From Climacium dendroides (taxonomy: Eukaryota > Streptophyta > Bryopsida > Hypnales > Climaciaceae), in the NCBI GenBank assembly GCA_950106755.1, contig OX467082.1, forward strand, positions 36,890,001 to 36,954,000: 64,000 nucleotides of DNA, written 5' to 3'. Made by a program: the position numbers and the translations under genes. Below, in pieces: positions 4,331-64,000 of this stretch. The notes beneath the pieces are model-generated. The model saw nothing but the letters and a program-made list of their open reading frames with translations, ran no database searches and was not told where the DNA came from. The stretch's first letter is position 1; each line of letters opens with the position of its first letter.

Positions 4331-5393
4331 TTTTTAAAGATTTCCGAATGAAATGGGAAAGTTTAGGATGAGCTTCCGGATGAAAAAAGTCAATCCTCGG
4401 GAATGCACCGGGTAGGAAAAAAGAATCTCGGCATTTTGGCCGTCTACCCTTGGAGGAAGTAGGAAAATTACCGATTAAAAGTCTATTTTTTCTGCAGGCA
4501 ACCGACCAGAAAAAAAAATTTAGGAAATTTTTTTATTTACAAATAGGGAAATATTGAAGTATGCTTACTATGCTAGTGTATAACTGTGTATCAATTGTGT
4601 AAGTAATGTGAATTTTAGGTGTTTGGGCATTGGATCGGACGATCTAGCGCCGCTCCCCCCAATGGCGTTCGAATTGCCAGGTGTACGCTTTAGGGTTCAT
4701 GAGTTTTGCAAATGTGCATCTTGTGATTTCTGTCTAAGTCCGTCAAATCTGTTGTAGTTTGGCTGTTTCAGAATTGGAACTTGACATTTGAAATCTTGTC
4801 TTTCGCCCATGAATTTGAGCACTATGCAAGTATGCATCGCAATTTGCAATCACGTTGTTCGCATTTCAAAAGGGTTTAAGGTTTCTGAATTTGGCAGTGC
4901 CAGCAGTGGCTTACGAGATTCATCGCGTATTCACGCTCCATTGCATTGAGGGGGGTTGTGGAATTGGCATCAAATTTTTGTGTTGAGTGCAGTGGAGTTT
5001 GCAGCACTTCAACTTTTTTCAATTCGCGCACACTGTGAGGAGAACAGAACTTTGCCCGCTGCGCCCTACGTTTTCAATTGAATGTGTCCTCCTGTTTTCT
5101 GTCTTTGCCATTGTTGTTTTTTTCTTTTGGCTGGCGTTGATCGGTGTTGCGTACCTTGCTCTGATCGGGGAGTTGGGGGCTATCATTCAAGGGTTACAAT
5201 TTGTGGGCAGGGTGCGATACAGGGTGTGCTTCGACACGGTTATGGTTCTCCGATACAAGGGTTTACTGTACCGTGGGAGCGCGCGCTTCGGACGGGGCTG
5301 GCATTTCGTGAGTCGGGGGGTCTATTGCTGGCTTCAAGGTGGTAATTTGCCAGTTCTTGCACTCACGAAGTGTAGTCTTTGCCTTACAAGGTT
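4331..5393. other. spacer and putative leader of the hAT gene
   Basis: No coding exon is supported. From about 4620 the GC content rises, as expected for a promoter or leader of the transposase gene that starts at 5394. The long open frames in this stretch have no recognisable protein features. Terminal inverted repeats for the hAT element were looked for here and not found. Confidence 0.4.
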
Positions 5394-7673
5394 ATGACGA
5401 AGCGTCAGAAATCTTTGGCCAACTCCTACTTCCGAAAGTCTTGTGAAGTGGATGAGGCAGAGGTCCTTTCTTCAGGAGGAGAGAGCACCCGATCGGTAGA
5501 GATACCGCCAAATTTAGGTACAAGTCACCCCCCTCCTTCGCAAGCACAGATTGCACAGGGCCTGTGGAAAGAAAGTTGGTCTGTCCAATTCGACTGGTTG
5601 CAATTTTCCACGGACTTGGGCAAATTGTTCTGCAAAATTTGTAAGGATAAAGGGGGGCGATCGGTGTACGTAAGAGAGGGCTCCAAAAATTTCAAAGTAT
5701 CAGCGTTCATGGACCACGCTCGGTCCAATGAACACCGGAGGCTTTTTTGGGCCACCAATAGCGGGGTGAAAACGATGGAGAGGGCGATTATGAATTCTCA
5801 GCATGCTTGTGATGAAGCACTTCAGACCCTGTTTCAAGCGGCCTACTTTATAGGGAAGCAATCTCTCTCTCATTGCAAATTCCCTGCTTTGTGTAAGCTT
5901 CTGAAAGCAGTGAATGCTCCTATTACAAGTAGTATCTATCAAGATAACAAAGCTTGTTCAGATTTGATTTGGTGCATTTCTCTTGTCATTCAGAAGAAGA
6001 TAATTTGTAGGGTGCGAAACTCCCCCTTCTATGGCATCATGATTAATGAATCCACAAACATCAGCGTGACCGGGCATTTGGTGGTTTTTGCGACAATAGT
6101 GGAAGAGGGGATGCCTGTGACTTTATTCTTGGGGTTGTTGCAGATCCAAGACGGGAAGAAAGACGTTGGAGTCATTTTCGATACTCTGCTGTCGAATTTG
6201 CGGACGTGGGGGCTGGACCTCTGTAAGTTGGTCATATTTGGAAGCGACGGCGCCAGTACTATGGGCGGCAGCTACAGCGGTGTAGCAACGAGGGTTCAAA
6301 AAGAGGTGAACCCGTTCCTTCTTGCATGTCATTGTGTGGCCCACAGGACGAATTTGGCAGCCTTGGACGCTGCAAAAGCTCCGGCTTGTAAGTCTTTGTC
6401 TTCCGAAATTGATTTGTTGTTGAATTCTGTTGCTTCCTTCTTCAATAAATCCAGTAAACGTAAACATGCTCTAACTTCTTTACAAGTAGAGTTATTGGAT
6501 GCAAAAAAAACCATGAAACACTATCACAAAATTCGGTGGTTGTCACGATGGCAGGCCGTAACTTCTCTTTGTGACTCCCTAGAATCATTCTTGCTGTTCT
6601 TCCGGGATTTGCCCGATGGTGAGGCAAAGCCGGTGTTTGAGAAACTTTCCCAGTTTAAATATGTTTACATCTTGTATTTCTTGGCTGACATTTTGGGTTG
6701 CTTGGCCATGTTGTCCAAAATCTTCCAAATTAAGTTTGTGGACGTCTCAACAGTTGGTAGTATTATTCGAACTGAGATTGCCCAAATCCGTATGTTCTTT
6801 CTTGTTGAAACAATTGACTTGAATGCAACAACTTTTAATGACGACACTGGCTTCCACATTTTACCGGAGTATGGCCCTCACGGAGGCTACATGCGCAGGT
6901 TGCAGTCCGAACTGAGGGGTAAAATGTTTCACAGCTTCGAGCTTGCCAGGTGTAGGCTCGGCAGGGACTTGGAGGAGGCTCTATGTTTTTAGAGGTCCTT
7001 TGCGGAGGCAGTTTGCGCAGGTTTGGAGGCCCGATTCAAGGATAATGATGTGATCTCATGTTTCAAAGTGTTGAACCCTACTAACATGCCGAGTAGTCAA
7101 GTGGGCTTGCAAAATTGGTTCGTTGCTAAGCTTGAGGTTTTATTGGCTCACTTTGGCGTGGACCGGTCCCACTTTGGATTTTCTCTTCCTGCCTTGGTTG
7201 ACATAGCATCATGCAAAAGGGAGTTTCTAGCCTTTAAACTCCAATGCATAAGTGAATGGAAGGATAAGAACTTCAGGGATGTTTGGGGAATGATCACATG
7301 GAACCATGCTTTGCAATGTCATTATCCAAACCTCTTGATTCTTGCTAAGTTAGCTTGTGTGCAATGTGTGTCTATAGCCACATGCGAGCGAGCTTTTAGT
7401 GTGCAAAACTTAATTAAAACAAGAGTAAGAAACCGGTTAGGCAGCAAAAATCTGGAAGCTATGTTGAGAGTTGCACTTGAAGGACCGGATGATGAGGTAA
7501 GTGACATTATTTGTGATGCCATTCTCCTTTGGAAGAATGACAACAAGTACCGATTCTTGTATGCTAACCCTGATATGTATTTAAATGTGGTAGGTCGTCC
7601 TAGTCTTAGTAATACATCTTGTTCATCTGGTGCATTGCAAAATGATGGTAGTAATGCTAGTGGGATTTCTTGA
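5394..7673 (+). pseudogene. hAT-superfamily transposase (KIAA1586/SCAND3-like), one in-frame stop
   Basis: Reads as one frame of 759 residues with a TAG at 6990-6992. An N-terminal BED/TTF-like zinc motif is visible (C80, C83, H108, H114). The hAT RNase-H-like core follows, with FYGIMINESTNISVTGHLVV, then VIFGSDGASTMGGSYSGV (Asp 285), then HCVAHRTNLA. The C-terminal dimerisation region holds SIATCERAFSVQNLIKTRVR, with Glu 665 as the expected third acidic residue. Relatives usually have IMIDESTD; here both acids are Asn (N218 at the likely catalytic position), so cut-and-paste activity is doubtful. After the stop the frame continues in register (RSFAEAVCAGLEARF), so this is one gene with a nonsense change. 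The first ATG in frame is 5394. Composition is GC-richer than the surroundings. Decay or partial domestication are both possible. Confidence 0.85.
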
Positions 7674-42480: not shown

Positions 42481-42525
42481 GGGTTTTGGTGTGCATTTCA
42501 AGTGCTACAGCATTTCCATTTGAGA

Positions 42526-43605
42526 ATGACAGCAGCGCTAGTGTTACCAAACCAGTGGGACGCATTAAACCAGTCCCTCGACGACAATGTGTTTGTGGAC
42601 ACTACGCACCAGGAGTACATCGACGCCATGAATCACTTTTGCTTCGATCTCCAGGACGCCGCGGACACCAGCTTTCTCCAGGCACAACAACAATCCTCAT
42701 CCGAGAGCGAGTTCGCTGTGCCCGACAGTCTCCCCACCCCGACCGGGAACTTCGTTTTCGACGTCGCCAGTTTCTTCAACTTCTCCCCCCTCCCGGACCT
42801 TCCCGAGGCCACCAGTCGCGACCACTTCGACGCCGGCACCTTCAGTGACTTCAGTGACGACGGGAAGCAAGCGCAGGAGCTCAACAGGGTGACCCTGGTG
42901 TCGAAGAATCTGAAGAAGACGCTGGGCTCCAACTTCGCGGAGCAAGTGGGCGCGCTCGTCAACGTGAGACCGTGTCGCAGCAAGACCCAATTGTCCAGGC
43001 TGACCATCCCCAACGCCGTTCCTTCGAAAGCCTTGTCTGCGCCCCAATCTGATGATATCGTGCAACCCGTTGTTCTCACGCCTTCGGGTTCAAAGCGGGT
43101 ACAATTCCAGCAACCCTCAGTGAGCTATGGCGTCAACGCAGAGGCAGTGCAACAGCAGAAGCCTGTGACAGAAGCTCCAGTTGTGAAGCCCAAATTGCCG
43201 CAGCAGCGGCAGCCGCATTACCGCGGCGTGAGGCAACGTCCATGGGGTAAATTTGCCGCGGAGATTCGCGACTCGGCGAAGAACGGCGCGCGAGTGTGGC
43301 TGGGCACTTTCGACACTGCGGAGCTCGCGGCCTTGGCGTACGACCGCGCGGCGTTGCGGATGCGAGGCTCTCGGGCTCTACTCAACTTCCCTTTGAAAGC
43401 TACCACGGCGCTCTCGAACCCGGAGTCGTTTCCGCCGCCGCCGGTCTCGTCGTCGTCAAGTCGCAAATCGCTCGCCAACAACGCCATGGAACTGAATTAC
43501 ACCGAGCGATACCCCGCCATTTTCAACAAAACCAAGAGACCGAGCTCTACCACCACGGCTGAGCCTGCGAAGCGACTGCGCGTTGAAGACATTGTCATGC
43601 ACTGA
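42526..43605 (+). CDS. ERF-subfamily AP2/ERF transcription factor, intronless
   Basis: A nuclear DNA-binding regulator, 359 residues. One AP2/ERF domain spans about residues 231-290, starting [20 protein letters not shown] and including [20 protein letters not shown] and [13 protein letters not shown]. Alanine and aspartate at the diagnostic positions ([10 protein letters not shown]) place it in the ERF rather than the DREB subfamily, so binding to GCC-box-type sites is expected; the sequence resembles group IX. The N-terminal 230 residues are acidic and Ser/Gln-rich, suiting an activation region. A basic AKRLR near the end may be a nuclear signal. The ATG at 42526 ([20 protein letters not shown]) is the first in frame. 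The coding region is GC-rich compared with its flanks. The gene appears intact. Stress or defence roles are typical of the family but not shown here. Confidence 0.93.
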
Positions 43606-56180: not shown

Positions 56181-56840
56181 ATGGCTCGTATTTTGTCTAT
56201 GATTGATGACTATGTAGATGTCAATATTGATGGTGTTGGATTCATGTGCATTCAATGTTCAAAATGTTTGACATTTCGTTTTAAAAAAGAAAAAGCGACA
56301 ATTTGTTGTTACAATGGTAAAGTTACCAGTGAACATGTTAGCCATCCTATTGTCCATCCAATACTAAATGAACTTTTTATAGGCAATACACCCAATTCTT
56401 GAGGATTTCTTAAATCCATTAAAAAAATATTATCAAACGTTTGCATTTACAAGTATGTGTAATAAGTTTCAATTTGGCCAAGCTGAAGATCGAGGGGTGT
56501 ATACTTTTCGTGTAAACGGAGAGTTATGCCATCATATTGGAAATTTAGAGTCCAAAATAGATCATGGCTCAAGATTTGCGCAAATTTACTTCTTAGATGA
56601 TGATTTGTAATTAGATCATCACATGGAGATCTTTGATGATTTTGATCGTGACACTGTTAATAACATCTAAAAAAATTTAGAATCTATAAATGCATTAGTT
56701 TGTGGTTTCAAGTCTTCACATCAAGTTCTTTTAAGGAGACATATTATAGGACTTCATATCTCTAGTGAGACTCCTATTGGTAAACATCATCATCAATATA
56801 ATTGACATGTGGTTCCAAAGATTGTATCGTAGATAGGCCA
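56181..56840 (+). pseudogene. Helitron Rep/helicase gene, N-terminal remnant
   Basis: MARILSMIDDYVDVNIDGVG begins a frame whose zinc-binding-like part (CIQCSKCLTFRF..ATICCYNGKV) resembles the N-terminal region of plant Helitron helicases. After a stop near 56400, another frame reads YYQTFAFTSMCNKFQFGQAE, GVYTFRVNGELCHHIGNLES and RFAQIYFLDDD, a recognisable Helitron segment, and then LRRHIIGLHISSETPIGKHH with HQYN. Stops and frame changes show it is dead. The gene resumes near 62190, so the 56840-62190 segment interrupts it. Confidence 0.75.
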
Positions 56841-58244
56841 CTCACCGTGTGCTGCCAATAACCGTGCACCCCACCGTGCATCTCACCGTGTACTTTGCAT
56901 CCTATCCGTTGGTTTTCACAAGCATTGATCTAAACCATCCATTTGTCCTTGTAAAGCTTTTTTCAAGACTGCTTTACCTTCACGCTACTTTTTCTCCACA
57001 CTAGCTATGGCCAGGACTGTTTGTCTTCCTTAGTACATTTTGTGAGAAACGATCCATTGTTTTTGTTTTTGTGGCCATTGCATTGTTTTGTAGCCAACAT
57101 TGTTGATTGAACGAACTAGCTGTGAAGAAAGTAATGTGAATGTTTGGCTATGGAGCTTTGTTGAAGGTGCGAGGTCATTGTTTCAACATCGAATAGGACT
57201 GGTTCCAAGAGGCTCTTGATTGTATTGTGGCGTTTTGGAGTATCACAGGGCGGGGGTGGAATGGTGCATGAGTCGTATGAGCGCACTAATTCAATTTTCT
57301 AATTCATACACGGCATGTGCATCGGGCTTGAGCCGTATGAGCGCGTTGGTTCAATTTTTTAGTTCACATGTGCATCGGGCTTGCTCTTTTCTGTAGCTCT
57401 TCTTGGATAGGTAACTCCAGATATGGTTGATTATTTTGTTCTTTTGAATTTGGAGAAACCGATGGAGATTTCGAGGAATTGTTTCTAATTTTTTGTTGAG
57501 GTATTGTTAGCTTGGACATTTAGGTGCAACATTGAATAGTTTTGTAAAGTAATAATGGATTTGGAATTGTTATATTACGTTGGCCTTGGGAACTAGTTTT
57601 GTAGTCGGAGGCATTAGAAGAGTTCATATGTTCTTTTTTGGATACATAATTCCATTGAGACCTTTGAAACACTGTGCAGATTATTGAGCGCAGTAGGAAT
57701 GCAACTTAGAACAAGGTATATCAAGACATCTCCCCTCTTCAATCCTCAAAGAGTTTTCTACATCAACCGAAAGTGAGACACACAATTATATTTTATTTGA
57801 TGCCAATTTATTTTGCTTCAATTAGCACCTTATATGAAGGAGGTAATCAGGTAACCTTTCTTTTCACTTGCCTTTAAGCTATGACCTAATAGTTTGCCCT
57901 TGGATCTTTGGATATGAGTCTTGCAGGTAAATGTATTTGCCCTGGGATGTTGGACTTGCAGATAAATGTAGCTCTACCTTGGATACGATTCAACCTAATT
58001 AAGGTACATTCTAGTTTCTTAGTATGTTTTCTCATTGCATTTTTATTTTAACACATACTCTTGTCATTGTTACGAGATTTACAAATCCAATTGCATTGAA
58101 TGAATGTAATTTGCTTCATTTGTATTTTCACAACCCTAGGTTCAAATGCTATAACATACCGGCTAAGTATTTTACATATTGCTCTTTGTAGCAATGATCT
58201 CTTCAAGGAGGAAGATGAAGTGGTAGCTTTAGACGATTGCAATC
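56841..58244. other. region upstream of the pogo-Ulp1 gene, probably part of the same insertion
   Basis: GC rises here and repeated ACCGTG(T/C)GC phrases occur at 56842-56895. A two-copy repeat lies at 57270-57382. No exon was confirmed, but GT-AG leader introns are possible. Terminal inverted repeats of the pogo element should lie here; none could be fixed by eye. Confidence 0.4.
57270..57382. repeat. two-copy ~57-base tandem repeat
   Basis: GAGTCGTATGAGCGCACTAA (57270) and GAGCCGTATGAGCGCGTTGG (57330) both run to ATGTGCATCGGGCTTG. The second copy is a few bases shorter. Confidence 0.75.
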
Positions 58245-61200
58245 ATGGCTAGACATCCTCAACAACGTGAACGAGTTCAAGTTCAGAAGTCTCATGCTGC
58301 ATCTTACAGTTTAAAGGCTTCAAGTCAGCCAACACCAAAGACCGTACCAAAACCTATTCCAAAGAAAAAACCTAGTGTACAGAAAGGCCCTATCAGAGGC
58401 ATGTGGACTGAGGAATTGATGCAAACAACCATCCAGTGTATCAAATCTGGACAGAGATCAATTAGAAATGCCTCTAAATTTTTCTCTATTCCTTTTTCAT
58501 CTATCAGGGATTGGATGTCGGGGAAGACAAAGAGCAAAAGACATGGACATGATCCCTATTTGACACAGGTAGAAGAAGAGGCACTGAAAACTTGGTGTTT
58601 CAAAATGCAAGATATGGCATTTTCGATAACCCTACCAATTTTGAAAAACACAGTAAGAAATATTGTGCAACGCTTTCCACGACAAGATCCTTTTAAAGAT
58701 GACCTTCCTGGCCAAACCTGGTGGGAATGCTTCAAGTTTCGACATCCAGATGTCGTATTGAGACTAGGTGAAGGTTTGGAAATGAAGCGATGTATGGGCT
58801 TAAACCACAAATCATGTTCCAATTTTTATAGTGGGTTAACCACTGTGATTACCTCTCATGGATATGAAGCATCTCATATATGGAATATGGATGAGACTGG
58901 AGTCCAAGCAACAAGGAAAAATAGTACCTCAAGGTTGTAGCAAAAAGGGGATCAAAAAATGTGAACATCTTGCTGGTAACAACAGGGAATGGTTGACTAT
59001 TATAGTGTGCATTAGTGCTCATGGAACTTACATTCCTCCTTACTACATATTCAAGGGAAAATATTTGCTTCAAGATTATGTAGAGTTGTGCGGACCTGGA
59101 GCAGCAATGAATGTTCAAGAAAATGGTTGGATTACCAACGAGATTTTTTGTGATTGGCTTGTACATTTTCAATCAAATGTTCCTGGAGGAGTAAGTCAAC
59201 AAAACAAGCATCTTCTCATTTTAGACGGACATTGCAGCCATGTGAGTGCTACAACACTAGATACTTGTATTAAAATGAGAATAGACATCATGAGTATTCC
59301 ATCACATATTTCACACAAAATGCAACCATTGGATGTATCATGTTTTAAACCTTTCAAGCAATATCTTCAAGAAGATAAAGCAGCAATGGGATTGAAAAAT
59401 CCAAATTGGGCTAATGGTGTCATGTTGAGATCAACTTTAGCTGGGATGGTTGCAACAGCTCTAAACAAAGCTCTAAAGCCATCTACCATATTAGCAGATT
59501 TCAAAGCAACAAGTATGTGCTCAATTTTATTTTTATTTTGCTTTAAATGATTTATTTAATATATAGTGAATTATTTTGTTCAACGTGACTTACATGTGGA
59601 TTTGCCAAACAACAGGCATCTTTCCAATAAATTCTAAGGCAATGGAGAGCTTTTATGGCCCAAGTATCCCTCATTTAAACAATGTGAATTTGCCTAAAGC
59701 TGTGAAGGATGAAGTAAGATTTGAAGATCAAGCACTTTCACAAACAGACAACAATACCAATATTGAACAGGTGTTGCACAAAAACGTTCATATTATTGAA
59801 GAGGTGCTTCAAGAAGAAGATGGCAATTGTGTCTTGTATGAAGAAAAACTCATTGACTTGTCAAATGAAGCATTTGGAACAATTCAAGAAAAAATACAAC
59901 CATTTGGGGAATGTACATTTGGAGAAGTAGTTCAAGGAGTTGTATGGCCATTGGATGATCCTAATCCAGTGGTAATTCAAACTATTGATTTTCATTGCCT
60001 TGATGAAGGTCAATGCTTAACAGATATGATTGTGGATTTCTATCTCAAGTACAAGGAAAGAAAATATAAGTGGTTTAAGGGCTTTCATTTCTTCAATAGT
60101 TTTTTCTTTAGGAAACTAGTACTTGTTCATCAATAGGCTACACCAAATGGATTCACTAAGATTGCACGTTGGATAAAAGATTTGAACATCTTCAACTGTA
60201 ACTATATCTTCTTGCCGATTCTATTAAGGTAATTGGCTATTCAATTCCTTATCACATTTGACAAAATTCTTACTAAATTTTTTGATTATTACTAACTAAT
60301 TTTTTTTTCAATTGCAGAGGGCATTGGAGCTTGATAGTTATGTGTTATCTTGGCAACACTACAACCAACCCTTGTATACTTCACTTAAATTCAATGAGTT
60401 CAACTACTCATTTGGATTTACATGAATATCTGAAATTGTAAGATTTTTTATAGCTCAAATTTGTTAATATGATCTTGATTAATTTGTAGTAGATATTGGA
60501 TCATGGTTATTGGCACTAATATACTAATTTTTGTTTATGTGTTATTTGCATTGTAGTTTGTTGAGCTCAGAATGGGACAGACAGAATAATACAAAACCTT
60601 TGAAAATTTCAAAAGAGCTTGTACTTGACCTACAGATCCAAGCGCTTGAAGTAAGCTAAGTGATCAATTATACATTCTTGAAGATGCATTGTAATTTTTG
60701 TCATGTTGCGTTATTTACAAATGTGAATATGTTATGTATGTGTGCAGGTTCCTCAACAGCCGGAGAGCAATGTGACTGATTGTGGAATTTATTTGTTGAA
60801 AAATATGGAGATTTTCATAGACACCATTATTGAATCAGTTACTTTGGGTCAAACTACTGATTGTATAGTAAGCCTCTACATCTCTTAGAAATTTATAAAT
60901 TGCTCCAAGTGTATTTGAATTTACAGTATGTTAACACAATTTGACTAAATACTAACTTGATTTTATTATATGATTGATCAGCTGAAGAAAATAAATTGGG
61001 AGTTCAAAAATGTAAGATTTCAAGATGAAGAAACTAGCTCAAAACGGTTGAGCATCCAACAAACAATATTGATGCTCCAAGGTGGTTCAATGTTCTCATC
61101 AATTGTTCCAACTATTCCTAAGAAGTAAGTCATCTACATTATTTTCCTTTTAATTCTTTTTTCTGTAATCATTTTTTCTAATTGTGTTGATTTTTACAAT

Positions 61201-61608
61201 CTTTATTAATTTTTATCTTCTTATTTTAGGAACAATGTACCTCAAGACCTATCCAGTATTCTAAAAGTCCCTACGTTCCCTCAAACTTCAAAAAGGAAGC
61301 AAAAAAATCCAAAAAGGTTGAATCCGCATGAAAAATGTCTTACTTCAGAGAAATTTACTTTGGAGAGACAAAAAGCAATACAAGAAGTAGAGGACAAGTT
61401 TAATGAGAAATTAGAAATGAGGAAGAAAAAAGCAGATCTTGCAAAGTCAAGAAAAGATGAAAAAATTCAGAGGCAAAAGGACGCACAACTGAAGAAAAAA
61501 GTGAAGCAGGAAGAAATAGGGATCAAGAAGAAAGAAAAGCAAGGAATATCAACAGTCAAGAAAAGGCCTACATTTGTTACACCTATAGCTACTAACATGC
61601 ACGGTTAG
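58245..61608 (+). pseudogene. pogo-type DDE transposase with embedded Ulp1/SENP-like C48 protease domain
   Basis: Exons 58245-59512, 59616-60228, 60318-60437, 60557-60650, 60748-60867, 60982-61124 and 61230-61608 join in frame at all six GT-AG introns. One extra base near 58905-58920 and a TAG at 60134-60136 break the frame; without that base the exons total 912 codons. Order: basic N terminus; psq/CENP-B-type helix-turn-helix (GMWTEELMQTTIQCIKSGQR, SSIRDWMSGKTKS); DDE core with Asp in WNMDETGVQ (D216), LLILDGHCSHVS and MQPLDVSCFKPFK; FKAT/SIFPINSKAM across intron 1; an acidic linker; a Ulp1-like fold (CLTDMIVDFYLKYKERKYKW, HFFNSFFFRKL, RGHWSLIVMCYLGNTTTNP, CILHLNSM, VPQQPESNVTDCGIYLLKNM); and a Lys/Glu coiled-coil tail. 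His (HW), Gln and Cys (DCG) are kept, but the expected catalytic Asp is Asn (LHLNS). Likely a transposon protein with SUMO-protease ancestry, now damaged. A read-through of two adjacent genes is the alternative. Confidence 0.8.
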
Positions 61609-62185
61609 TGATTGATACAATGATTTGATAATGCCATACATAGTTGTGCACCTATTTGGTGAAAGGTCACAACTTTTTAATGAAAAATTCATTTTTTCAA
61701 GTGGACAATAGTATCATCTAAGTCACTAATGATATTCAAAAAAAAATTACGATTTTTTTGATACCCAACCTGTGAAAATCACTCTTGAAATCAAATGTGC
61801 GCAGTCATTGGCCTGTCTACAATAGCTATTGTTCTTGACGAACAACACATGGAATTTGTTTGAAACATTATTCTGACCTTCATCACATTGTATTATAAGG
61901 TATAATGGTGGAAATTTTTTGCCAAATTTATTTACACTCCATACTACATCAAATTTTAGAAATGGATGTTGTTCTAAATGAGGGTTTGAAAAGGTATAGG
62001 ATTCTTCTCCCAATATCAAACAATCCTATAACAAATTGAATGTATATGGCCCAAGCAAAGCTAAACTCTTTCATGATTTGTGTTTCAAAGCATCAATGTT
62101 CATACATTCGAACCCATCTTTGCATTCATGTCCATGTATATGGGCATGTCCTTATGTCCTCACGCATCCTTGTATTTGCATCCAT
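61609..62185. other. downstream part of the insertion in the Helitron
   Basis: No recognised domain. A 90-codon minus-strand frame (61747-62019) has no known family. The right boundary of the pogo-Ulp1 segment should lie here, before Helitron coding resumes. Confidence 0.4.
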
Positions 62186-64000
62186 ACTAGTATCATCAAT
62201 GTGGTGGAGATTTACAACGGATAAAGAAAATTCATCCAATTTATGATGCTTTATCCTATCCTTTGTTATTTTTAGATGGTCAATGCAGGTGATCACCTAC
62301 TTTTAAAGTAAATATTGGAGTGACTTTAAAGTCATTTGTGTTTCAAAAGCAGCTTGAATTTAATGTACTATATAGGGTTGGTAGGTTATTCCAGCAATAT
62401 GTAGTAGATTGATATTTGCGTGTAGAACACAAAAATCTACTTTTCATTAGACAACATCATGCAAAATTTCATGCAAAATGTTATTAGGGGATTGTAGATG
62501 CTATGTAGGAAGACAATAGAACACACATTGGACGTTGCATTGTTTTACTTGCGACATTCATCAGATCCCCTCGATACATGCAAAAAAATTCATGATAATA
62601 TGTTTTTAATTAGAGTTTTAGGCAAACCAGATTTGTTTGTAACAATGACGTGTAATCCAACTTGGTCTGAGATCATTGATGAGCTTGAGCTAGGTCAAAG
62701 TCCTCCCCATCGTCTAGATGTTGATGTGCATGTCTTTGAGTTCAAATTAACCTCTAAATGCATTGGACTATGTTTTCACCAAAAACACTCCAAAATTGCC
62801 ATTTTTAAAATAAGTACCAAATTTTAGGGAAAAACTTTTTTTAGACACATGTAACCATAAGATCTTGAAGTACACTTGTTTGAAAAGATGTGGGAAAAAT
62901 TTCAGAAATTTCCAACCCGTAGATTGCAAGTTATTAGCATTTGAATTTACAAAAATCTTTTTTTGTCCCTACAAAAAATCGGGCAGCTACACTTCACAAG
63001 TCACATTTGTATGAAAAAATGTCCAAAATGGTGGTTACTCTTTGAATTCATTCTTCAAGGCAAGTTGGCTACATGATTAAAAATTTTTAGATCATTTGGA
63101 ATTGTACAACATATAGGAAAAAATAGTAAGTAGAAAAAATAGACAATTATTCAAAACACTAAATTATTAAGAATTTATTTATGGAATTGAAAAATGAGAA
63201 TCCCAATGGTTTTAATGTTGTAATATACAATATATATCTTAAGATTTTATTTTTTTCAAAAAATATTGAAAATTGAATTCAATAAAAGACTCCAAAGTTT
63301 ATTTTAGAGTCGAGAATCCATAAGTGTCCCCAAACTAAATTTGCTCATAATTTTCATCTCATAAATCAAAATGGAATGATTTGAAGCTTTTCATTCATAT
63401 TTATATATATGAATATATATAAAGTTGAGCATTTAGGGGTTAAGAGCAATGATGGACGAAATCACAAAGAAGAATGTATTGGGAGAGACAATTGTTTTTT
63501 GTTACACTATTGAATTTCAAAAGTGTGGTCTCTCTCATGCTCACATTCTTCTTTGGTTGAAAGACAAAATCGACAATTGTGACCTTCTAGATAGACTTGT
63601 ATATGCTCAGATTTCAGATTTGGATAAACAACTGTGATTTTATGCCACGGTTACTAAGTACATGATGCATAGTCCATGCGGTTTGGGTAATCCCAATTGT
63701 CCATGTATGGAGGATGGAAAATGTTGTAAACATTATTCAATGCAAATTCGAGATACTATCGAGATGGATGGTGACAGTTATATTTTGTATCGTTGTCGAA
63801 ATCATAGTCGGTCTATTGAAAAACACACATGGTCAGATTGTTCATTTGAACAATCGATGGGTTGTGCTATACAACCCATATTTTAGTAGGCCGTTTTAAT
63901 TGTCATATTAATATGGAGGTTTGCAATTCAATAAAACTATCAAATACCTCCATAAGTATATTTTTAATGGTTCAGATTATGGCATTGTAAAAACGAATGA
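62186..64000 (+). pseudogene. Helitron Rep/helicase gene, central part, runs off the window
   Basis: Coding resumes with GGDLQRIKKIHPIYDALSYP then LLF, continues QLEFNVLYRVGRLFQQYVVD, VEHKNLLFIRQHH and SPRYMQ, then after a frame change VLGKPDLFVTMTCNPTWSEI, the conserved Helitron motif. After the 62751-63439 insertion it goes on with EITKKNVLGETIVFCYTIEF, QKCGLSHAHILLWLKDKI (the region of the HUH/rolling-circle domain), MHSPCGLGNPNCPCMEDGKC, VVLYNPYFSRPFNCHINMEV and IKYLHKYIFNGSDYG at the right edge. Several stops and frame changes show decay. The helicase part is expected beyond 64000. Confidence 0.85.
62751..63439 (+). mobile_element. 689-bp TTAA element inserted in the Helitron gene
   Basis: TTAA at 62747-62750 and 63440-63443. 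Left end CCTCTAAATGCATTGGACTATG, right end GAGCATTTAGGGG. The interior matches 20516-21429 (GGCAGCTACACTTCACAAG, GTCCAAAATGGTGGTTACTC). Coding on both sides joins in frame if the element and one TTAA are removed (VFEFK then LRAMMDEITKK), which directly supports a TTAA target duplication. Confidence 0.88.

Follow-up and report, generated by a model that had tools for sequence, protein, structure and literature searches.

Can a pogo transposon carry a SUMO protease inside its own transposase, and if so, where did the protease come from? This question is raised by a gene in a 64,000-nucleotide stretch of the moss Climacium dendroides (assembly GCA_950106755.1, contig OX467082.1, positions 36,890,001 to 36,954,000, forward strand), which we call the window and number from its first letter. 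An earlier note had described, at 58245-61608, a pogo transposase with a Ulp1-like domain between its catalytic core and its tail. Our best explanation overall, to which we give a probability of roughly 0.6, is that the locus holds a dead pogo transposon with the captured catalytic part of a ULP2 gene, whose protease would have served the element while it was intact. We are nearly certain that the composite (helix-turn-helix (HTH), DDE, protease, tail) and its capture are real.

The gene model starts at 58245, its coding part ends at 61608, and a stop codon follows at 61609-61611. Both boundaries given by the earlier note are borne out, as are its six introns, all of which are GT-AG and join their exons in frame (Table 1). 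Its statement that the frame is never lost has to be given up, since exon 1 is broken by two 1-nt indels and a TAG lies in the protease part. The first reading frame of exon 1 runs into a stop at 58938-58940, KVVAKRGSKNVN is read in a second frame, and the sequence from EWLTIIV onwards is in a third; alignment with a second copy of the element on contig C34 places the indels at 58926 and 58967. With two frameshifts in the DDE part and an in-frame TAG, the window copy is unable to make the protein. It is a pseudogene, dead, and these same lesions rule out a perfect gene at this locus.

To describe the domains, we ran Pfam on the 909-residue read-through protein, with X at the breaks, and also on exon 1 alone. 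The read-through protein matches DDE_1 at residues 246-413 (1e-23) and Peptidase_C48 at residues 554-729 (1.4e-16). HTH_Tnp_Tc5 reaches 22.6 bits in exon 1 alone (1.1e-4; cut-off 22.2) and 19.9 bits in the whole protein (7.3e-4), while HTH_psq stays below its cut-off (17 bits versus 20.4, 0.0048, in exon 1; 0.021 in the whole protein). Together with a Lys/Glu tail that the C34 copy shares at 98% identity, these matches recover the domain set and order proposed before. The catalytic Asp residues of the DDE core lie at 216, 325, and 361 of the read-through protein, with a spacing of 35 (DD35D). The pogo motif IFPINSKAM, just after intron 1, and the start of the Ulp1 part share one exon that is open over 59616-60133; none of 20,000 first-order Markov simulations of this stretch stayed open. 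Intron 1 itself, which the earlier note had singled out, gains support from homology: it interrupts here a pogo C-terminal motif that two Ulp1-less relatives in this genome, L041 and L047, have in one piece.

The whole element spans 56827-61822, 4,996 bp flanked by TA, and the stretch first described therefore omits both of its ends. The best 24-mer pairing between the terminal inverted repeats (TIRs) has 18 of 24 matches, a value reached or exceeded by 7 of 100 shuffles; given this weak pairing, the ends rest on comparison with other copies. When the element is excised in silico with one TA, both sides join in a single frame (HVVPKIV-AIVLDEQHMEF). The interrupted sequence (56383-56826 and 61825-63886) is a decayed Helitron. 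Its right side matches Helitron_like_N in Pfam (1.2e-11 and 1.4e-9); the left piece gives no Pfam match, so that its assignment to the same Helitron rests on frame continuity, and further stops in the sequence indicate that the Helitron has decayed as well. Several CACCGTG-like repeats lie just inside the left end of the element (56841-56891), with one inverted copy at the coding end (61597-61611), and the C34 copy is 12 bases shorter in the repeat zone; these repeats may be subterminal binding sites.

We searched the genome (412.6 Mb, 123 contigs) for other copies. The C34 copy (L057, C34:22262500-22266600) aligns with the element from end to end, at 92.9% over 2,838 columns and 97.7% over 1,188. 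The two copies lie in different flanking sequence, each with a TA next to both of its ends; because a few bases of the C34 flanks beyond the TA happen to be mirror images, the end of that copy is fixed with less certainty than the end of the window copy. This copy keeps the DDE exon (1,226 of 1,268 aligned bases identical, 96.7%; 37 of the 42 mismatches are transitions), the end of the Ulp1 part with VPQQPESNVTDCG, and the tail, in which 380 of 382 positions are identical. A deletion of 1,084 columns, which begins in intron 1 and ends within intron 4, has taken away the linker together with the initial half of Ulp1. On contig C3, DNA searches with the two ends found a left end of 60 bp at 83% (22487148) and a right end of 211 bp at 77% (22490519-22490738); between them, on the same strand, is a C48 match at 39% (22489693) with three stops inside, and no DDE on C3 is among the matches listed in the genome DDE_1 and DNA searches. 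Each end search found at least three places (the window, C34, and C3), counts that are lower bounds because the DNA search skips common words.

The same arrangement recurs in more distant relatives. We fetched 13 ten-kb loci around the 17 C48 (PF02902) matches in the genome; that search did not list the window's own Ulp1, which means that its reach is low. Two of the 13 loci, L014 and L017, also have a pogo DDE upstream of Ulp1 on the same strand, 39% and 40% identical to the window's DDE, respectively, and a tail of the same type downstream, giving the order DDE - Ulp1 - Lys/Glu tail. They are older, badly decayed members of a single family, and their aligned pieces agree at 74-90%. The gap from DDE to Ulp1 is about 380 bp in L017, like the window's, and about 2.8 kb in L014. 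The site that best matches the right end of L014 is the window's right end, with 14 of 19 positions in common; for the right end of L017 this is not so (12 of 19, with other sites at 12-13). No left end was found for L014. The element is one composite transposon gene that moved as a unit, as the earlier note had proposed, with ends in common with C34 and C3 and its order repeated at L014 and L017. What the note had named as decisive against it, DDE and Ulp1 always in separate genes, does not hold within this genome. The alternative of two neighbouring genes is ruled out by the common ends and the order in the copies.

The genome also has pogo relatives that lack the protease. DDE_1 has at least 150 scored matches among 486 candidates in the genome, many of them pogo-like; reviews describe pogo as restricted in land plants (PMC7386202, PMC7325037, in the parts consulted). 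Among 30 of these DDE_1 stretches, fetched with 1.5-kb flanks, the Ulp1 profile matched one, that of the window element. The nearest Ulp1-less relatives, L041 and L047, have 48% DDE identity to the window over the aligned part. In a DDE tree, the window falls in a seven-row clade (100/98) with L041, L047, P0011, P0012, L014, and L017, and within it groups with L041, L047, P0011, and P0012 at 94/80; all rows of this tree are pogo-like, so it shows the kinship of the window, not its rank.

The tail tells us where the protease went in. The L047 tail, LSQILAIPTF...KLITSESF, matches the window tail with a score of 133, compared with 81 or less for 20 shuffled tails, and Ulp1-less L041 also has a tail of the pogo type. 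With the same measure L017 scores 98, and L014 scores 80, short of the 81 that the best shuffle reached on L047. Since L047 has the same tail without Ulp1, the insert entered between the DDE core and a pre-existing transposase tail; that ULP2 brought the tail with it is ruled out.

What kind of protease was captured? All ten listed database matches of the Ulp1 part carry C48, nine of them also PF25352, and several are named ULP2A or ULP2B. The best PDB match is SENP7 (3.3e-21), and yeast Ulp2 is among the others (2.1e-13). Judged from these matches, the protease is of the ULP2 class, SENP6/7-like. The window keeps His, Gln, and Cys; L014 keeps the Cys, and L017 keeps the Asp of the triad.

The introns point to the source. 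With a spliced aligner of our own making, we built models for six ULP2-like host genes. All six have introns that match window introns 2, 3, and 4 exactly in alignment column and phase. Intron 5 lies one column away (241 versus 242), in the same phase, from an intron present only in L015 and L016. The rough chance value for this four-of-four match, with the one-column difference treated as a match, is 2e-9. These common columns and phases argue that the DNA of an intron-bearing gene was captured, and the donor was probably a gene like L015 or L016. Two introns present in all six host genes are missing from the window (column 48, phase 2; columns 134-139, phase 1); they were either lost or never in the donor. 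Thus the captured part resembles host ULP2 proteases in its catalytic-domain sequence, its His-Gln-Cys, and the places and phases of its introns, and differs from them in the two missing introns, in an Asn at the triad, and in that the gene model contains nothing of the host N-terminal region.

We propose that the catalytic part of a plant SUMO protease gene of the ULP2 type, introns included, was incorporated into the transposase gene of a cut-and-paste transposon of the pogo superfamily. With the protease placed behind the DDE core and ahead of the element's own Lys/Glu tail, one spliced transcript would have encoded HTH - DDE - deSUMOylase - tail as a single protein. The HTH domains would bind the termini of the element and the DDE core would do the cutting and joining, while the fused protease could strip SUMO from the transposase itself or from nearby silencing and repair proteins, easing expression or transposition. 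We lean slightly towards the protease having acted as a deSUMOylase for the element. A bolder version supposes an old pogo lineage, its DDE parts diverged to about 40% identity, with a functional deSUMOylase of the ULP2 type that undid SUMO-dependent silencing at the insertion site or freed the transposase; this version is tentative and in our judgement unlikely. If it were true, transposase and counter-defence would be united in one protein.

Several observations weigh against a protease that served the element, and some of them suit a passenger better: ULP2 DNA picked up as a gene piece and held in frame for a time, with no benefit to the transposon. In the window and at L014, Asn stands where the triad of SENP7 has Asp, leaving the His-Asp-Cys triad incomplete; the same Asn occurs in P0003, a cotton ULP2B isoform. 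Two extra residues separate Gln from Cys, in the C34 copy too. None of the copies examined is intact: besides the lesions of the window, C34 has one stop of its own in addition to its deletion, and the aligned DDE parts of L014 and L017 have seven stops plus two frameshifts and one stop plus seven frameshifts, respectively. The ratio of nonsynonymous to synonymous substitution rates (dN/dS) between the DDE exons of the window and C34 is 0.63 (12 synonymous and 29 nonsynonymous changes), near that of neutral decay, and says little beyond decay. None of the 149 listed protein-database matches (10 + 93 + 46) carries both DDE and Ulp1 domains. Finally, L041 and L047 nest inside the composite DDE clade, and the DDE of L047 has no stops; either the insert is therefore dispensable, a single capture followed by loss on the branch of these two, or there were two captures. 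Trees of the Ulp1 part, in which the three composite rows group at only 59/68, do not decide between one capture and two. The passenger explanation is harder to reconcile with an insert that sits in the transposase frame with its splice sites kept, or with far-diverged L014 and L017, which still have Ulp1 with the His and Cys motifs each in at least one copy; the same order in two families suggests retention. We hold a passenger to be a serious contender, though clearly the less probable one.

Two other explanations were weighed. A pogo element might have landed in a decayed host ULP2 gene or next to one, the frames aligning by luck; with many DDE_1 stretches and several ULP2 genes in the genome such neighbours could arise, and the TIR is weak on its own. 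This is highly improbable: the composite recurs with these ends at C34 and, diverged, at C3, the order is repeated at L014 and L017, the tail behind Ulp1 is a pogo tail, and within the Helitron the two ends flank Ulp1; segmental duplication of the window locus does not fit with the C34 flanks, which differ from the window's. Just as improbable is a domesticated host gene, a pogo-ULP2 fusion retained by the host of which the window would be a dead copy: all composites examined are decayed, TA-flanked, or fragmentary, and no intact single-copy fusion is among the matches listed in genome searches of limited reach.

How does this dead composite transposon compare with known elements? Members of the pogo superfamily have HTH_Tnp_Tc5, often with HTH_psq or CENP-B_N, a DDE_1 core with DD29-56D, and a TA duplication; they measure 1.20-5.20 kb and encode 300-977 aa, with TIRs up to 40 bp in most families (PMC7386202, PMC7325037). 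Our element agrees with them in HTH_Tnp_Tc5, DDE_1, DD35D, the TA duplication, its 4,996 bp, and its roughly 909 residues; its terminal repeats are short, with the weak pairing described above. In contrast to them, its transposase holds a ULP2-type protease with introns, a domain not named in the consulted parts of these two papers; neither 'SUMO' nor 'peptidase' occurs in the review PMC7325037. A parallel in layout is Ginger1, whose transposases carry a C-terminal Ulp1 for which the authors proposed a role in transposition (PMC2836005, in part). Both unite a DDE transposase and a Ulp1 protease in a single protein, whereas the Ginger1 core is of the Gypsy-integrase type with a GPY/F motif, in animals, and the window's is pogo, with a pogo tail after the protease. 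Pfam gave only DDE_1, C48, and two HTH families for the window protein, and neither a Gypsy-integrase-type core nor a MULE transposase.

In plants, Ulp1 genes are known from Kaonashi (KIU) Mutator-like elements and from Ulp1-carrying VANC genes, and Vandal relatives escape silencing (PMC13317346, PMC6117577, in the parts consulted). These are likewise plant transposons with a transduplicated Ulp1; there, however, the domain is in a separate gene or a VANC gene of a MULE, whereas here it is inside a pogo transposase with host ULP2 introns. Grapevine has CACTA-ULP and MULE-ULP families, and one rice protein joins Tnp2 and ULP1; these too are cut-and-paste transposons with a ULP domain, of other superfamilies, and the consulted part of that study states that no Tc1-Mariner element was found in grapevine (PMC2528002). 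Cryptons carry C48 proteins (PMC3212892) and Utopia/NeSL elements a Ulp1-like domain (PMC4640811), as described in the portions consulted; they resemble our element as mobile elements with Ulp1/C48, but are tyrosine recombinase elements and non-LTR (long terminal repeat) retrotransposons. None of the terms sought is present in PMC12730594, and no pogo-Ulp1 element was found in the literature searched, a scope that leaves out subscription papers and repeat databases. Ulp1 capture is thus already known in other elements; what is new here is the pogo transposase as host and the donor introns that were kept. The pogo case adds a superfamily to the pattern of uptake of Ulp1-like proteases by several unrelated kinds of transposon, and the donor introns, still in place, are among the clearest records of how such a capture happened. 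Recurrent capture suggests that SUMO removal helps mobile elements, and a fused transposase-protease would allow this benefit to be tested in one protein.

Table 1 Features of the composite pogo element, in window positions.
Feature	Position	Strand	Basis
TA target-site duplication, left	56825..56826	.	TA outside common end in window and C34; empty-site join
Left TIR, imperfect, TCGTAGATAGGCCACTCA...	56827..56850	+	Pairs with right end; end set by C34 copy
Whole element, 4,996 bp	56827..61822	+	Ends in common with C34 in other flanks; diverged ends on C3
Exon 1: psq ~58410-58541, Tc5/CENP-B ~58569-58757, DDE core ~58984-59493 (DD35D)	58245..59512	+	Pfam
Two 1-nt frameshifts	58926..58968	+	Frames and indels versus C34 copy; first-frame stop 58938-58940
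Intron 1, phase 1, within pogo C-terminal motif	59513..59615	+	GT-AG; motif unbroken in L041 and L047
Exon 2: end of pogo motif, linker, first half of Ulp1 from ~59933	59616..60228	+	Spliced alignment to plant ULP2
In-frame TAG inside Ulp1 domain	60134..60136	+	Gene model
Intron 2, phase 2, common to host ULP2 genes	60229..60317	+	Alignment column 115, 6/6 host genes
Exon 3: catalytic His (GHWSL); Asp position is Asn (HLNS)	60318..60437	+	Gene model, PDB match
Intron 3, phase 2, common to host ULP2 genes	60438..60556	+	Column 167, 6/6
Exon 4, Ulp1	60557..60650	+	Gene model
Intron 4, phase 0, common to host ULP2 genes	60651..60747	+	Column 199, 6/6
Exon 5: Gln (VPQQ) and catalytic Cys (TDCG)	60748..60867	+	Same motif in C34 copy
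Intron 5, phase 0, common to two host ULP2 genes	60868..60981	+	Column 241; 242 in L015 and L016
Exon 6: end of Ulp1-derived part	60982..61124	+	Gene model, host-gene alignment
Intron 6, phase 2	61125..61229	+	No host counterpart in modelled stretch
Exon 7: pogo-type tail (LSSILKVPTF ... Lys/Glu, coiled-coil-like) and stop	61230..61611	+	Alignment with Ulp1-less L047
Right TIR	61799..61822	-	C34 copy; right end also on C3
TA target-site duplication, right	61823..61824	.	C34 comparison, Helitron empty site

Other ULP2-like sequences turned up in the genome. The minus strand at C1:34784502-34785822 matches Ulp1 exons in four places, with up to 67% identity to the window Ulp1. Several similar exon matches lie within about 110 kb at C34:23638152-23747716, perhaps a local array of ULP2-like genes, and at L012 (C37:16767400-16777300) a partial ULP2-like gene occurs as an inverted pair, with about 1.5 kb between its members. 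Elsewhere in the window are an AP2-domain gene at 42481-43602 (PF00847, 4.6e-16), which like the plant-like ULP2 genes would fit a plant host, and, at 5376-7670, a hAT-like transposase remnant in two frames, with Pfam matches to zf-C17orf113, DUF4371 (under cut-off), and Dimer_Tnp_hAT.
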